From the NCBI GenBank assembly GCA_017521345.1, contig JAFXCU010000090.1:1-12732 (forward strand): 12,732 nt of DNA, written 5' to 3'. Below the pieces are notes generated by a model. That model had not been told where the DNA came from, searched no databases, and saw only the letters and a program-made list of their open reading frames with translations. Positions within the stretch are counted from its first letter, which is position 1. The number at the start of each line of letters is the position of its first letter. Positions 1,461 to 7,099 of the stretch are shown here, in pieces. A program made the translations under genes and the position numbers. Source of the DNA: Ruminiclostridium sp. Its GTDB lineage: Bacteria > Bacillota_A > Clostridia > Oscillospirales > Oscillospiraceae.

Positions 1461-2333
1461 TTGCGTGCCATTCAACAGTGGCTGGATCGCTTCTGCTACA
1501 AGCATCCTAAGCTGAGTATCCCCGGCCTGATGCGGTACATCGTCATCGGCAACGTCCTGGTCTACCTGCTGGATATGTTCAGCATGGGGGGCGGGGCTCT
1601 GGGCTCCGGCCTGTTCAGCTTCAACACATCCGCCATTCTCTCCGGCCAGATCTGGCGTCTGGTCACCTTCATCTTCGTGCCCATGGGCAGCTCCAACATT
1701 TTCTTCTTTGCCATCACCCTGTACTTCTACTACTTCATCGGCAACGCCCTGGAGCGGGAGTGGGGGAGCAACAAGTTCACCGTCTTCTACTTCTTCGGCG
1801 TTCTCCTGAACATCCTCATCGGCTTCCTGGTGGGCGGAGCCTCCATGTACTACGTGAACATGTCCATGTTCTTTGCCTTCGCCACCCTGTACCCCGACCT
1901 GCAGTTCCTGCTGTTCTTCATCATCCCCGTGAAGGCCAAGTGGCTGGCCTGGATCGACGCCGCCTACTTCGCCATCGCCGTCTTCCAGTACCTGGCCGGC
2001 GGCCACATCCTCATGGCCCTCATCCCCATCGTGGCCGTGCTGAACTACCTGCTCTTCTTCGCCTCTGACATCGGCAACCTATTCTCCACCGCCAAGCGCC
2101 AGGCCAAGTGGAAGGCCGCCCAGCGGCCCAACCAGCGGCAGTATGGCGGGCCCAAGGTGGTCAACTTCGGCGATGCCAAGACCAAGACCAAGGAGAACTA
2201 CCTCCACCGCTGCGCCGTCTGCGGCAAGACCGACGTGTCCCACCCCCAGATGGAGTTCCGGTACTGCTCCCGGTGCAACGGCTACTACTGCTACTGCGCC
2301 GACCACATCAATACACACATTCATGTGCAGTGA
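1461..2333 (+). CDS. Rhomboid-like integral membrane protein with C-terminal Cys/His-rich zinc-binding-type tail
   Basis: A 290-residue polytopic membrane protein. TTG at 1461 is chosen as start because a perfect AAGGAGG (1445-1451) lies 9 nt upstream; the in-frame ATG at 1437 precedes that site. About six hydrophobic segments span residues 25-202. The rhomboid landmark GQIWRLVTFIF (about 62-72) is followed by LEREWGSNKF after the second helix, as in COG0705/PF01694 proteins. Rhomboids are intramembrane serine proteases with GxSG and a His in TM6. Here the aligned segment reads NMSMFF (Ser135), so the flanking glycines are lost, while a His is kept in GGHILMA (His182). Protease activity is therefore doubtful. 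Residues 251-288 hold CxxC (251/254), CxxC (269/272), CYC (277/279) and His 282, 286, 288, a likely zinc-binding tail. The TGA stop lies inside the first GTGAAAT linker of the downstream hairpin array. Confidence 0.85.
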   Translation: MRAIQQWLDRFCYKHPKLSIPGLMRYIVIGNVLVYLLDMFSMGGGALGSGLFSFNTSAILSGQIWRLVTFIFVPMGSSNIFFFAITLYFYYFIGNALEREWGSNKFTVFYFFGVLLNILIGFLVGGASMYYVNMSMFFAFATLYPDLQFLLFFIIPVKAKWLAWIDAAYFAIAVFQYLAGGHILMALIPIVAVLNYLLFFASDIGNLFSTAKRQAKWKAAQRPNQRQYGGPKVVNFGDAKTKTKENYLHRCAVCGKTDVSHPQMEFRYCSRCNGYYCYCADHINTHIHVQ

Positions 2334-2435
2334 AATTGGGCCCTTGGCCCAGTGAAATACGCCTTCGGCGTGTGAAATCCGGCCCTCGGCCGGGTGAAAT
2401 AGCCCCAAGGGGCTGATTCGGTGTCCCTTCGGGAC
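2316..2435 (+). repeat. Tandem array of short hairpins joined by GTGAAAT linkers
   Basis: Exact GTGAAAT heptamers start at 2330, 2352, 2372 and 2394 (spacing 22, 20, 22). Each is followed by a different perfect inverted repeat: TGGGCC-CTT-GGCCCA (2337-2351), ACGCC-TTC-GGCGT (2359-2371), CCGGCC-CTC-GGCCGG (2379-2393) and AGCCCC-AA-GGGGCT (2401-2414). A fifth, GTCCC-TTC-GGGAC (2423-2435), follows a degenerate linker. A weaker hairpin, CACA-TTCA-TGTG (2316-2327), precedes the first linker inside the end of the rhomboid-like gene. Stem sequences differ while pairing is kept, so structure is conserved over sequence. The stretch from 2436 to the cdd ribosome binding site is U-rich, so the last hairpin might act as a weak terminator. 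I do not recognise this as a named family. Confidence 0.85.
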
Positions 2436-2473
2436 GTATTTTATTCTGTTTTTCAGAAAAGGAGGCGTTTGCT

Positions 2474-2866
2474 ATGACCGATAAAGATTTGGTGGAGCTG
2501 GCCTTCACCATGCTGGACAAGGCCTACATCCCCTACTCAAACTTCCCCGTGGGGGCCGCCCTGGAGGGTTCCGACGGCACCGTCTACACCGGCTGCAACG
2601 TGGAGAACGCCGCCTACGGCTCCTGCATCTGTGCCGAGCGCACCGCCCTGGTGAAGGCGGTCAGCGAGGGCTGCCGCTCCTTCACCCGCATCGCCGTGGT
2701 GGGCAACGGCCCCGACTACTGCTGGCCCTGCGGCTCCTGCCGCCAGATGCTCTACGAGTTCGCCCCCGACCTGGAGGTCCTGGTGGCCAACCGGGACCAC
2801 GATTATGTAAAATACACCCTGCGTCAGCTTCTGCCCCACGGCTTCGGCCCCGAGGCTCTAAAATGA
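2474..2866 (+). CDS. cdd: Cytidine deaminase
   Basis: Cytoplasmic pyrimidine-salvage enzyme that deaminates cytidine and deoxycytidine to uridine and deoxyuridine. At 130 residues it has the length of the homotetrameric bacterial class. Substrate-binding FPVGAAL (24-30) and GCNVENAAYG (40-49) are present. The zinc site is complete: Cys53 with catalytic Glu55 in CAERTA, and Cys86 and Cys89 in PCGSCRQ. The start is fixed by a GGAGG at 2461-2465 ahead of ATG 2474. The gene directly follows the GTGAAAT hairpin array, with no other clear promoter seen in the gap, so it could be read through from upstream. It is followed 25 bp later by an acetyltransferase gene, probably in the same transcript. Nothing in it is unusual. 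Confidence 0.97.
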   Translation: MTDKDLVELAFTMLDKAYIPYSNFPVGAALEGSDGTVYTGCNVENAAYGSCICAERTALVKAVSEGCRSFTRIAVVGNGPDYCWPCGSCRQMLYEFAPDLEVLVANRDHDYVKYTLRQLLPHGFGPEALK

Positions 2867-2891: not shown

Positions 2892-3467
2892 ATGGACCTA
2901 CAGGAATTTCTGGACCGGCTGAAGGCCGGAGAGGCCATCACCCCCGATGGAGACCTGCATCACTTCATGCACGACCTCACCGAGGAGACCCTGCGCCTGA
3001 CGGCAGAACTCAACGGCTCCTACCACACCCAGGAGGAGATCTGCGCCCTCTTCGCCCAAATCACCGGCAAGCCAACCCCGGAGGGCTTCCGACTCTTCCC
3101 GCCCTTCTATGCCAACCTGGGCAGGAACATCACCGTGGGCAAGGGGGTCTTTCTCAACACCGGCTGCCACTTCGGCGACCAGGGGGGCATCACCATCGGG
3201 GACAACACCCTCTTCGGCAGCAACGTGGTCCTGGCCACGGTCAACCACGACTTTGACCCGGCCAACCGCCGGACGGCCTACCCCTCCCCCATCGTCATTG
3301 GGAGCAGCGTGTGGATCGGCTCCAGCGTCACCATCACTCCCGGTGTCACCAGTGGGGACGGCTCCTTCGTGGACGCAGGCGCGGTGGTCTCCAAAGACGT
3401 GCCGCCCAATACTGTCGTTGCCGGCGTACCGGCCCGGATCATCAAAACCATTGAACCGAATACATAA
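2892..3467 (+). CDS. Left-handed beta-helix (hexapeptide) sugar O-acetyltransferase, Maa/LacA-like
   Basis: A 191-residue acetyl-CoA-dependent transferase of the maltose/galactoside acetyltransferase class. Such enzymes acetylate a hydroxyl of a sugar; the acceptor here cannot be told. The N-terminal third (1-65) is helical. From residue 75 onward there are imperfect [LIV]GxxxX hexapeptide turns: ITVGKGVFLN, ITIGDNTLFG, IVIGSSVWIG, VTITPGV, and the closing VVAGVPARII typical of the superfamily. The catalytic His is His119 in VNHDFDP, as in the NH-x-x-DP motif of Maa and LacA. A strong AAGGAGG (2879-2885) precedes ATG 2892. It lies 25 bp after cdd and is probably cotranscribed. Its TAA stop (3465-3467) overlaps the left arm of a strong bidirectional terminator. 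The shorter N-terminus compared with typical Maa proteins leaves substrate class open. Confidence 0.88.
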   Translation: MDLQEFLDRLKAGEAITPDGDLHHFMHDLTEETLRLTAELNGSYHTQEEICALFAQITGKPTPEGFRLFPPFYANLGRNITVGKGVFLNTGCHFGDQGGITIGDNTLFGSNVVLATVNHDFDPANRRTAYPSPIVIGSSVWIGSSVTITPGVTSGDGSFVDAGAVVSKDVPPNTVVAGVPARIIKTIEPNT

Positions 3468-4499: not shown

Positions 4500-5360
4500 T
4501 TACGCCCCGGCTTCGGCCTGGGCTTTCTTTTTGTCCATTTGGGCCCCCACGATGTTATAGACCATGATGGAGACAAAGACGATGACGCCGCCCACCAGGG
4601 AGAGGCCCGTGATGGTCTCCCCCACCACCAGGGCCACCAGGACGGGGTTCAGGATGGGCTCGATGCCGGTGACCAGAGAGGCCGACACCGGCGGGGCATA
4701 CTTGACGCCCACGGTGAGAAACACATAGGCGATGCCCAGCTGGAAGACGCCCAGCAGGACGGCAGCCACCAGGGTCTGCTGGTCGAACTGGGTCTCCTGG
4801 ACCAGGGAGGGCAGGCCCACGATGGCCGCCAGACCATGGCCCAGCAGGGTGGAGGACAGAGGATCGCCCCCGGGGATCTTGTTGAGCATGAAGATCCAGC
4901 CGTAGCACACACCGGCCAGCACCGCCAGGCAGTTGCCCACCATGTCGCCGGAGCCCAGACCGTCCAGGAAGAAGCAGCCGATGCCGCAGAAGACGATGAG
5001 ACTGGTGCCGATGTCCAGCTTTTTGGGCTTCTCCTTAAAAATGAGCCACATGAAGAGGATGACCCAGATGGGAGAGGTGAACTGGAGGAGGATGGCGTTG
5101 GCCGCCGTGGTGAGCTTGGTGGCCGCCGTGTACAGGGTGGTGCTGCAGGCCACGATGCAGGCCCCGGCGATGGTGCCGGGGGTGAACTTCACCTTCTGCC
5201 GGGTGACTTTGCCAAAGATAAAGAGGATGACCACCGAGATGATGCTCCGGAAGGAGTTGATGGACAGGGACTGCCAGGGAATGAGCTTCACCAGCAGGCC
5301 GCCGGTGCTGAAGAGCAGGGAGGCGGCAAACACACAGAGAAGACCTTTTCTGGCATTCAT
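4500..5360 (-). CDS. EamA/DMT-family transporter (third of three tandem paralogues)
   Basis: A 286-residue inner membrane protein of the drug/metabolite transporter superfamily, with ten expected helices formed by two EamA repeats. Family-typical features: a first helix MNARKGLLCVFAASLLFSTGG, TTAANAILLQFTSPIWVI in the first repeat, and SLVTGIEPILNPVLVALV near the end of the second. The Lys/Glu-rich tail KKKAQAEAGA is cytoplasmic by the positive-inside rule. Its ATG overlaps the TGA stop of the upstream paralogue as ATGA (5360-5357), so translation is coupled. The pseudouridine synthase follows 13 bp later. DMT members export or import amino acids, nucleosides, SAM and others; substrate cannot be read from sequence, but a place in a metY operon suggests a sulfur amino acid or related compound. 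Confidence 0.93.
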   Translation of the reverse strand: MNARKGLLCVFAASLLFSTGGLLVKLIPWQSLSINSFRSIISVVILFIFGKVTRQKVKFTPGTIAGACIVACSTTLYTAATKLTTAANAILLQFTSPIWVILFMWLIFKEKPKKLDIGTSLIVFCGIGCFFLDGLGSGDMVGNCLAVLAGVCYGWIFMLNKIPGGDPLSSTLLGHGLAAIVGLPSLVQETQFDQQTLVAAVLLGVFQLGIAYVFLTVGVKYAPPVSASLVTGIEPILNPVLVALVVGETITGLSLVGGVIVFVSIMVYNIVGAQMDKKKAQAEAGA

Positions 5361-6217
5361 ACCGTGGCCGCCTTTCTCTCAGCCTGCTTCTCCTGCCGGG
5401 CGGAGAGCACGTTGTAGGCCATGATGCTCAGGAATACGATGGCACCGCCCACCAGGGACAGGGGGGAGATCATCTCCCCCAGGACCACCGCCACCAGGAC
5501 GGGATTCAGGATGGGCTCGATGCCGGCCACCAGACAGGCGGAGACCGGCGGGGCATAGCGGATGCCCGTGGTGAAGAACATGTAAGCAATGCCCAGCTGG
5601 AAGACACCCAGGGCCAGGGCGGAGGCCAGAGCCACGCCGGTGAACTGGGTCTCCTGGATGAGCCAGGGGAAACCGATGAGGGCACCCAGGGCCTGGCCCA
5701 GGATGGTGGCAAAGAGGGGGTCTCCCCCGGGGAACTTGTTCATCATGAAGACGCCGGCATAGCACACGCCGGACAGGAGGGCCAGCGCATCACCCAGGAA
5801 GCTGCCGGACCCCAGGCTGTCCAGGAAGAAGCAGGCCACACCGCCGAAGACGGCAACGCAGGTGATCACGTCCAGCCGCTTGGGCCGCTCCTTAAAGACC
5901 AGCCACATGACCAGGATCACGAAGACCGGGGCAGTGAATTGGAGAAGGATGGTGTTGGCGGCGGTGGTGAGCTTGTTGGCGATGGCGTAGAGGGTGGTGA
6001 CCCCGCACATGGACACAGCGCCCATGATGACGCCGGGAGTGAGCTTGAACTTCCGGCCGGTGACCTTGGCGAAAATCAGCAGCAGGATCACCGAGACGAT
6101 GCTCCGGAAGGAGTTGATGGCCATGGCGTTCCAGGGGATCACCTTGACACACAGGCCGCCGATGCTGAAAAGGATGGCGGCGATAAACACAAACAGAAGG
6201 CCCTTACGGGAGGACAT
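5357..6217 (-). CDS. EamA/DMT-family transporter (second of three tandem paralogues)
   Basis: A 286-residue ten-helix transporter, closely similar along its whole length to both neighbours. Shared blocks include the N-terminal RKGLL, INSFRSI, NKLTTAANTILLQF, FFLDSLGSG, PGGDPL, the ETQF segment and GIEPILNPVLVAVV. The C-terminal tail (QEKQAERKAATV) is charged and divergent between copies. ATG 6217-6215 follows a GAAAGGAAGG stretch and lies 18 bp after the stop of the first transporter. Its stop overlaps the start of the third (ATGA). Paralogues kept adjacent with conserved cores may form a heteromeric or substrate-split set; DMT proteins often act as homo- or hetero-dimers, but no pairing can be read here. 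Confidence 0.93.
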   Translation of the reverse strand: MSSRKGLLFVFIAAILFSIGGLCVKVIPWNAMAINSFRSIVSVILLLIFAKVTGRKFKLTPGVIMGAVSMCGVTTLYAIANKLTTAANTILLQFTAPVFVILVMWLVFKERPKRLDVITCVAVFGGVACFFLDSLGSGSFLGDALALLSGVCYAGVFMMNKFPGGDPLFATILGQALGALIGFPWLIQETQFTGVALASALALGVFQLGIAYMFFTTGIRYAPPVSACLVAGIEPILNPVLVAVVLGEMISPLSLVGGAIVFLSIMAYNVLSARQEKQAERKAATV

Positions 6218-6235
6218 GGACGACCTTCCTTTCTC

Positions 6236-7099
6236 TTATGATTGGGCAGACCCGGCGGCCTCTCTGGCCTCGGCCCGGGCCCCCAGGACATTATACACCA
6301 TGACGGTGACAAAGACGATGGCGCCGCCCAGCAGGGACAGGGGGGTGAGGACCTCCCCAATGGCAACGGCCACCAGGATGGGGTTCAGGATGGGCTCGAT
6401 GCCGGTCACCAGACAGCAGGACACGGGCGGGGCATACTTGGTGCCCCAGGAGATGAGGATGTAGGCAAAGCCCAGGGCAAAGACGCCCAGGCAGATGGCC
6501 GCAAAAAGGGTCTGACCGTCAAACTGGGTCTCCTTCACCAGCCAGGGCAGACCGATGACCGCACCCATGGCCTGGCCCAGGGCACAGGCAAAGATGGAGT
6601 CGCCCCCAGGGATCTTGTTCATCATGAAGATCCAGGCGTAGCCCACGCCGGACAGGAGGGCCAGGGAGTCGCCCAGGAGGCTGCCGTTGCCCAGGCTGTC
6701 CAGGAAGAAGCAGGCGATGCCCCCGAAGACGATGACGCAGGTGATCACATCCAGCTTTTTGGGCTTTTCATGGAAGCACAGCCACATGAAGAGGATGACG
6801 AACACCGGGGCAGAGAACTGCAGCAGGATGGTATTGCCCGCCGTGGTAAGCTTGTTGGCCGACACATACAGGATGGTGGTCACGCACATGGCAAAGGCAC
6901 CGATGGCCACGCCGGGGGTGAGCTTCAGCTTATGATGGGTGATCCTGGCAAAGGCAAAGATCATGGAGGCGGAGATGATGCTGCGGAAGGAATTGATAGC
7001 CATGGGATGCCAGGGAATGACCTTGATGCACAGGCCGCCGATGCTCATGAGCAGGGCCGCCACGAAGACGCAGAGCAGACCTTTTCTGGCCTTGGTCAT
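6236..7099 (-). CDS. EamA/DMT-family transporter (first of three tandem paralogues)
   Basis: A 287-residue ten-helix DMT protein, encoded next after metY with 21 bp between. AGGGAGGG precedes ATG 7099-7097. It has the same block order as the two later copies (RKGLLCVF, INSFRSII, NKLTTAGNTILLQF, FFLDSLGNG, PGGDSIF, ETQFDGQTLF, GIEPILNPILVAVA). Differences include a Cys-rich stretch SCCLVTG where the others have SASLVTG or SACLVAG, in the repeat next to the conserved GIEP. As the copy nearest metY it is the best candidate for the ancestral operon member, though this is only an inference from position. Substrate is unknown; an amino acid, a homoserine ester or SAM-like compound would fit the operon. 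Confidence 0.93.
   Translation of the reverse strand: MTKARKGLLCVFVAALLMSIGGLCIKVIPWHPMAINSFRSIISASMIFAFARITHHKLKLTPGVAIGAFAMCVTTILYVSANKLTTAGNTILLQFSAPVFVILFMWLCFHEKPKKLDVITCVIVFGGIACFFLDSLGNGSLLGDSLALLSGVGYAWIFMMNKIPGGDSIFACALGQAMGAVIGLPWLVKETQFDGQTLFAAICLGVFALGFAYILISWGTKYAPPVSCCLVTGIEPILNPILVAVAIGEVLTPLSLLGGAIVFVTVMVYNVLGARAEAREAAGSAQS

Follow-up and report, generated by a model that had tools for sequence, protein, structure and literature searches.

A GTGAAAT-linked hairpin array between a rhomboid-like gene and cdd is a copy of Gut-1, a dispersed and patchily present repeat found at the 3′ ends of genes

The window, by which we mean the whole 12,732-nt stretch of DNA that was analysed, contains an array of four GTGAAAT linkers (22, 20 and 22 nt apart) and five perfect hairpins, located between a rhomboid-like gene and cdd. 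The features of this region are as follows:

1461..2333, plus strand: rhomboid-like membrane protein gene (gene caller and ORF list; ORF 1437-2333)
2328..2405, plus strand: match to Rfam RF01706, Gut-1 (76.7 bits, gathering score 50, E 2.4e-14 over the window)
2330..2445, plus strand: match to covariance model R1 of type A arrays, defined below (121.4 bits; the window is among its 41 sequences)
2330..2336, plus strand: linker 1, GTGAAAT (motif search)
2337..2351, plus strand: hairpin 1, TGGGCC-CTT-GGCCCA (fold; extends to 2335-2353 when folded)
2352..2358, plus strand: linker 2, GTGAAAT (motif search)
2359..2371, plus strand: hairpin 2, ACGCC-TTC-GGCGT (fold)
2372..2378, plus strand: linker 3, GTGAAAT (motif search)
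2379..2393, plus strand: hairpin 3, CCGGCC-CTC-GGCCGG (fold)
2394..2400, plus strand: linker 4, GTGAAAT (motif search)
2401..2414, plus strand: hairpin 4, AGCCCC-AA-GGGGCT, alternatively with a 4-nt loop (fold)
2423..2435, plus strand: hairpin 5, GTCCC-TTC-GGGAC (fold)
2474..2866, plus strand: cdd, cytidine deaminase (PF00383, 1.7e-19)

Both the GTGAAAT linkers and the perfect inverted repeats claimed in the first-pass annotation are borne out. GTGAAAT occurs five times on the two strands of the whole window, compared with a mean of 0.83 and a maximum of 4 in dinucleotide shuffles (0/200 reach 5), and the RNA fold of plus-strand positions 2300-2480 includes all five hairpins (z = -3.3, with 0/200 shuffles equally stable). 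The array region gave a z of -3.5 when folded as minus-strand RNA and of -2.8 when folded as plus-strand DNA (3/200 shuffles equally stable). Since stems 1-3 each reach 2 bp into the linkers in the RNA fold, the unpaired part of the linker is GAA alone. The only terminator-like site in 2250-2560 lies at 2421-2437 (hairpin 5) with the tail ATTTTATTCT, compared with a mean of 0.5 such sites in shuffles; it was also scored by a second terminator detector, the one used on other copies, whereas no promoter-like site was found in 2250-2560.

The ORF coordinates confirm that the TGA stop codon of the upstream gene (2331-2333) is part of the first linker, as had been noticed. In nine relatives in which cdd adjoins the upstream gene, the upstream protein ends at one common Gln residue, so that of the two placements originally offered, at the gene end or slightly inside it, the former holds and the latter does not. 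The distance from stop codon to cdd is 12-69 nt in these nine relatives and 140 nt in the window. The closest relatives by upstream protein are Evtepia-like gut bacteria, with a best identity of 91%. The designation of the upstream gene as rhomboid-like is weak, as its product scores 16.1 bits against Pfam Rhomboid, below the cut-off of 22.6. Elsewhere in the window, a SAM riboswitch (RF00162, 51 bits) is located at 1191-1281 on the minus strand, upstream of the minus-strand gene 3-1109, and three adjoining, paralogue-like ORFs of 286-287 aa occupy 4500-7099 on the minus strand, the first of which encodes an EamA-type transporter according to Pfam.

The window array scores above the gathering score of RF01706 across model positions 1-77 of 77, and this match identifies it as a copy of the known family Gut-1, which Rfam classes as an sRNA gene. 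In the available part of Weinberg et al. (2010; PMC2864571), Gut-1 is described, without a function, as a certain structured RNA that is probably not cis-regulatory and most likely a noncoding RNA, and its source is given as environmental sequences only, from the human gut only. In the literature library searched, no other publication naming Gut-1 was found. Compared to that description, as far as the available part of PMC2864571 goes, the family appears here as a multicopy element of many genomes, located in 3′ UTRs or behind terminators, and the Rfam model is shorter than the unit defined here.

Gut-1 is a dispersed and patchily present repeat in the searched genomes, and the further GTGAAAT/hairpin loci that a search of relatives was expected to reveal are indeed numerous. 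At E <= 0.001, matches were detected in 3/16 genomes of the sampled genus (all 3 over the Rfam cut-off), 75/400 of the family (50 over the cut-off), 163/394 of the order (128 over the cut-off), which from named relatives we take to be of the Oscillospirales type, and 49/291 of the class (33 over the cut-off), as well as in 1/16 genomes reached through the loci of upstream-protein relatives. Covariance model R1, built from 41 window-like type A arrays with the window copy included, matched 45/291 genomes of the class. The three carriers in the genus have 15 (G002), 28 (G018) and 7 (G019) Gut-1 matches; in the large searches, with 11-15 candidates scored per genome, counts per genome are lower bounds. 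As a control for the Rfam searches, 14 named genomes were examined, of which one (E. coli) matched at E <= 0.001, under the cut-off. No array match was found in plasmid and phage collections.

At related loci the array is present in some genomes and absent from others. Model R1 was run on 80 loci at which relatives carry the upstream gene and matched none of them; 75 of these loci include at least 200 nt downstream of that gene. The array adjoins rsmH at 1/9 related loci (G002) and pfk at 2/15 (G002 and G019); the gene end was located in 7/9 rsmH and 11/15 pfk loci (one of them, L298, is spurious), and the array search covered all 24. G018 and G001 share 97-98% identity with G002 in their rsmH and pfk proteins, yet in them the two genes are followed by ordinary terminators instead of the array. 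This patchy presence indicates, from sequence comparison, that the array is gained or lost at conserved gene loci. A 15.2-bit match inside a gene (L270) is taken as chance. Two pairs of copies, L081/L101 and L089/L104, are common to two species at one locus and may reflect vertical inheritance with use. The pfk orthologues L081 and L101 are 87% identical over 901 bp, yet their linker sets differ in all four places, a switch that could be due to gene conversion from another copy or to joint change. In the pfk locus of G018 (L287), another insert precedes the terminator where G002 and G019 carry the array. The rhomboid-cdd gap of G002 (L002, after position 3044) starts with CAATGAAGC and contains two hairpins that may be left over from an array of the ATGAAGC type at this position; model R1 had no match in this gap.

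For the analysis of placement, 179 distinct arrays were parsed from loci comprising the best Rfam matches and chosen stretches rather than a random sample, 78 without an inverted half (type A, like the window array) and 101 with one (type B); some rows duplicate a locus or are orthologues of others (L093, L134, L147, L152, L216 and L247; L081/L101; L094/L107). None of the 78 type A arrays lies within a gene, and in nine an ORF enters the array by 4 or 26 nt, based on gene calls from a codon model that had nine genes of the window as its training set and is less safe on the other genera to which it was also applied. An ORF-length gene caller that placed 37/78 arrays inside genes was rejected, as it was judged to call antisense ORFs of GC-rich DNA. 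The 5′ neighbour is in the sense orientation in 65 arrays, antisense in 6 and uncalled in 7, a count that is uninformative alone because convergent gene pairs always yield a sense 5′ neighbour. Among the 66/78 arrays with both neighbours called, those between codirectional genes are in sense in 21 cases and antisense in 5 (p 0.002), 34/39 between convergent genes are nearer the 5′ gene, and one lies between divergent genes. The distance from stop codon to array has a median of 32 nt over 60 sense arrays. A Pfam scan of 52 of the 65 listed upstream proteins yielded 69 families, none of which was found in more than two proteins. Because the genes that precede other copies are unrelated, the array is unlikely to regulate cdd specifically, and the earlier suggestion of a multi-hairpin attenuator before this gene loses ground to that extent; a regulator specific to cdd or to the rhomboid-like gene was rejected, given the lack of matches at the 80 relatives' loci and the unrelated upstream families. 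A role at transcript ends would fit the placement of the arrays and the terminator of full copies.

The extent of a full copy can be read from L084 and L088, both in G002, which are 98.5% identical over 196 bp and unrelated outside; this one pair defines the unit boundaries. The unit consists of an end hairpin around TTGCAAAATGCAA, the five array hairpins, a spacer, and a second end hairpin around TTGCAAAT..ATTTTGCAA followed by a T-run, the latter being an intrinsic terminator. Its two ends match as inverted repeats at 18/21 bases in L084, the one copy scored. The window copy aligns to unit positions 31 to 141 of 197, and both end hairpins are missing. In three close genomes, an intrinsic terminator is present within 140 nt 3′ of the array in 26/31 cases, compared with 1/31 in the 5′ control, and the opposite strand of the same stretch also scores as a terminator in 12/31; in other genera, a terminator follows the array in 7/29. 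The unit is therefore neither uniform nor strictly one-way. These counts come from the second detector; the first (16/61) was replaced because it lost terminators whose stem entered the T-run. Among the possibilities listed in the first-pass annotation, that of a spreading repeat element gains support from the dispersal, the patchy loci and the L084/L088 pair.

A second dispersed palindromic repeat, CCTCGCAGAGTTTCGCCG...CGACATGTGCGTG..., is located straight behind the end hairpin of the array in L085, L098, L099 and L104, and also occurs away from the array in L094 and L221; compared against Rfam, it reached the gathering score of no family. In L104, this repeat is extra relative to the orthologous L089 and has TTTTGG on both sides. 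Whole arrays are doubled head to tail at one locus in L134, L152 and L247.

Alignment A1 includes 41 of the 62 listed type A arrays, with those that were hard to align or near-duplicate left out. In A1, 97.4% of stem cells are paired, double changes occur in 20/30 pairs, and the covariation score is 0.504, compared with 0.176 when shuffled and at most 0.10 when slid. The 23 inner pairs show 177 double-change cells, 7 one-sided and 26 unpaired, the first of these numbers being inflated by inheritance because cells count sequences and not events. Inner pairs of type A stems (n = 1198) comprise 5 G-U and 8 A-C; when only distinct hairpin units with no more than one mismatch are counted, the numbers are 5 G-U and 5 A-C of 865 in type A and 4 G-U and 16 A-C of 1001 in type B. 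In contrast, 69 G-U versus 1 A-C were counted among 936 pairs of tRNA stems at the fetched loci, whereas ordinary terminators, with 46 G-U versus 28 A-C of 2371, show a much weaker preference than tRNA stems, which differs from types A and B together (p 0.0015) but not significantly from type A alone (p 0.13). Since the stems lack the G-U excess seen in tRNA, covariation alone is no proof of selection on RNA; the G-U test, which is of low power when confined to type A, leaves room for a terminator-like RNA role. The proposal that selection acts on the fold plus the linker is thus upheld as far as conservation of both across genomes is concerned, whereas the G-U counts do not bear out selection on an RNA fold.

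Loops have 3 nt in 346/458 units and are variable in sequence. The linkers, for which the parser accepts only the form TGA[AT][AG][TC], fall into the sets GTGAAAT, GTGATAT, ATGAAAT, ATGATAT, ATGAAGT, ATGATGT, ATGAAGC and a few others. They can add two pairs per stem (A6-T2′ and T7-G1′), leaving GAA or GAT single-stranded, and their positions 1 and 6 vary together: in 3/458 units, both pairs at the base of the stem are wobbles. The number of units, which the first-pass annotation proposed to compare between strains, looks fixed in type A: according to the parser, none of the 78 arrays has more than four linkers, and a variable-number tandem array was rejected for this type. By a looser linker count, L210, L211 and L217 have five or six in a row; these arrays belong to type B or are mixed.

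Candidate mobilisers were searched in genomes with and without the array. Y1 transposase was over the cut-off in 7/13 array-bearing genomes and in 3/9 without the array; Y1_Tnp is missing from G018 despite its 28 array matches, although a missed gene is possible in draft genomes. In 10 of 15 Y1 loci checked for TGAAAT/TGATAT linker pairs, eight had none and two had one, and a RAYT flanked by array repeats was not found in the Y1-bearing loci and genomes checked. Given that no Y1 gene is consistently present and that linker pairs are rare at the Y1 loci checked, mobilisation by RAYT is not supported; nor is group II intron machinery, whose maturase was found in 0/22 genomes. No target-site duplication was seen beside L084 and L088. 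A clean empty site was not found among the related loci, where relatives' flanks differ or a terminator seems replaced.

MITEs are non-coding elements of approximately 200 bp with terminal inverted repeats, near-identical copies of which are found at unrelated sites. The 196-bp non-coding unit resembles them in its imperfect end inverted repeats, scored in L084, and in the near-identical copies L084 and L088 at unrelated sites; in contrast to MITEs, each end is itself palindromic. In pneumococcus, BOX elements are modular, structured, intergenic and mobile-looking, with one module repeated a variable number of times. The array shares the first four of these properties but differs in sequence and modules, and type A shows no variable repeat number. 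Likewise, the arrays resemble REP, BIME and REPIN elements, the palindromic repeats associated with RAYT transposases (PMC3733652; see also PMC3116915), in being short palindromes that are dispersed, intergenic and single or grouped, some of them (type B) in inverted pairs. The GTAG or CGTC tag that marks one end of the 20-40 bp palindrome in REP/REPIN was not found, the array linkers being GTGAAAT and its kin, and, unlike REP/REPIN as presented in the available part of PMC3733652, the array unit comprises five to seven hairpins and its linkers are fixed. The main text of PMC3733652, as far as it was available, contains none of the terms Faecalibacterium, Clostridi and Firmicutes.

Taken together, the family match, dispersal, patchy loci, unit bounds from one pair, 3′-end placement and stem covariation point to a reading to which we assign a probability of roughly 0.6, namely that the window array is the inner part of a MITE- or REP-like dispersed element, mobilised in trans and located at gene 3′ ends. 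A full copy of approximately 196 bp would have five hairpins flanked by two palindromic end hairpins, the second of which is followed by a T-run; a trans-acting enzyme would move it as a MITE- or REP-like element, and the palindromes would be maintained at the DNA level. Copies would be gained and lost just after stop codons, mostly pointing along the gene, so that an array settling at a gene 3′ end would, as a full copy, bring its own terminator. Both end hairpins may have been lost from the window copy, conceivably because a terminator in that position would stop transcription short of cdd. A possible effect of this copy on cdd would draw on its position and on one weak terminator-like site.

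Several other explanations may be considered against this background. Gut-1 could be a functional RNA, either an independent sRNA or a 3′ UTR that binds a protein via GAA/GAU linkers and controls the stability of the upstream mRNA. The very strong covariation in A1 (97.4% paired, 20/30 double changes, 0.504 versus 0.176), the conservation of fold and linkers across genomes, and the coupling of linker positions 1 and 6, with both wobbles in only 3/458 units, would all be expected of such an RNA, and the placement of copies after stop codons with a sense bias would fit as well; however, G-U is not favoured over A-C (5:8 in type A, 5:5 in its distinct units, 4:16 in type B, against 69:1 in tRNA), loop sequences vary, no promoter-like site lies in 2250-2560, and presence is patchy beside unrelated genes, which together make this explanation unlikely. 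Part of the same evidence might instead be accounted for at the level of DNA. Template switching corrects palindromes, and strand switching during replication may have perfected the stems, with covariation as a by-product of DNA repair and the array merely persisting. The excess of double-change over one-sided and unpaired cells in the 23 inner pairs of A1 (177 versus 7 and 26) and the absence of a G-U preference agree with this process, which gives no reason for linker conservation, the constant hairpin number or the orientation bias; as a full account we regard it as somewhat unlikely, and it can be combined with the mobile-element explanation.

It has also been considered that the window array acts as an attenuator or partial terminator, lowering cdd relative to the upstream gene. 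The array parts codirectional genes that are spaced 12-69 nt apart in nine relatives, hairpin 5 with its T-rich tail is terminator-like, and most copies in close genomes have an intrinsic terminator at their end. Nevertheless, the site is weak (1 versus a shuffle mean of 0.5), the strong end terminator is missing from the window copy, and elsewhere the array is not tied to cdd, so that such a role seems highly improbable.

Returning to the mobile-element reading, what the available part of PMC2864571 treats as an RNA of environmental sequences is here an element dispersed over gene ends, and patchily present, in many gut bacteria. Near-perfect compensatory changes may stem from DNA palindromes, which calls for caution with covariation-based RNA catalogues. 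Since full copies carry terminators, gain or loss of the array could rewire transcript ends.

A longer element, type B, matches the same model in many genomes of the order and is composed of three GTGAAAT hairpins, a central hairpin, and hairpins with the reversed linker ATTTCAC. In one example (L163), the linkers of the two halves can pair, and z is -6.7 for RNA and -8.6 for DNA. The 57 loci L132-L188 include 41 of type B, 37 of which begin directly behind a T-run and 19 of which are found no more than 75 nt downstream of a gene for tRNA or tmRNA, in sense. It is conceivable, albeit at less than even odds, that types A and B belong to one large superfamily of mobile palindrome arrays homing to transcript ends, in which a trans factor would read the code of GTGAAAT and hairpins and covariation would arise at the DNA level. 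Type A would then occupy sites after stop codons with its own terminator, and type B sites immediately behind the terminators of genes for tRNA, tmRNA and others, its linkers in one half being able to pair with the reversed linkers in the other; if so, covariation would be a false lead for RNA discovery.

Two type B loci may be mentioned separately. A viral-filed contig of 13,189 bp (L264) has a type B copy at about 1017-1202 behind a terminator. In G728, L204:1-730 consists of three tandem units of approximately 243 nt, each composed of a terminator, a type B element and a tail, all of which stand behind one tRNA gene (tRNA-Val, 735-810).
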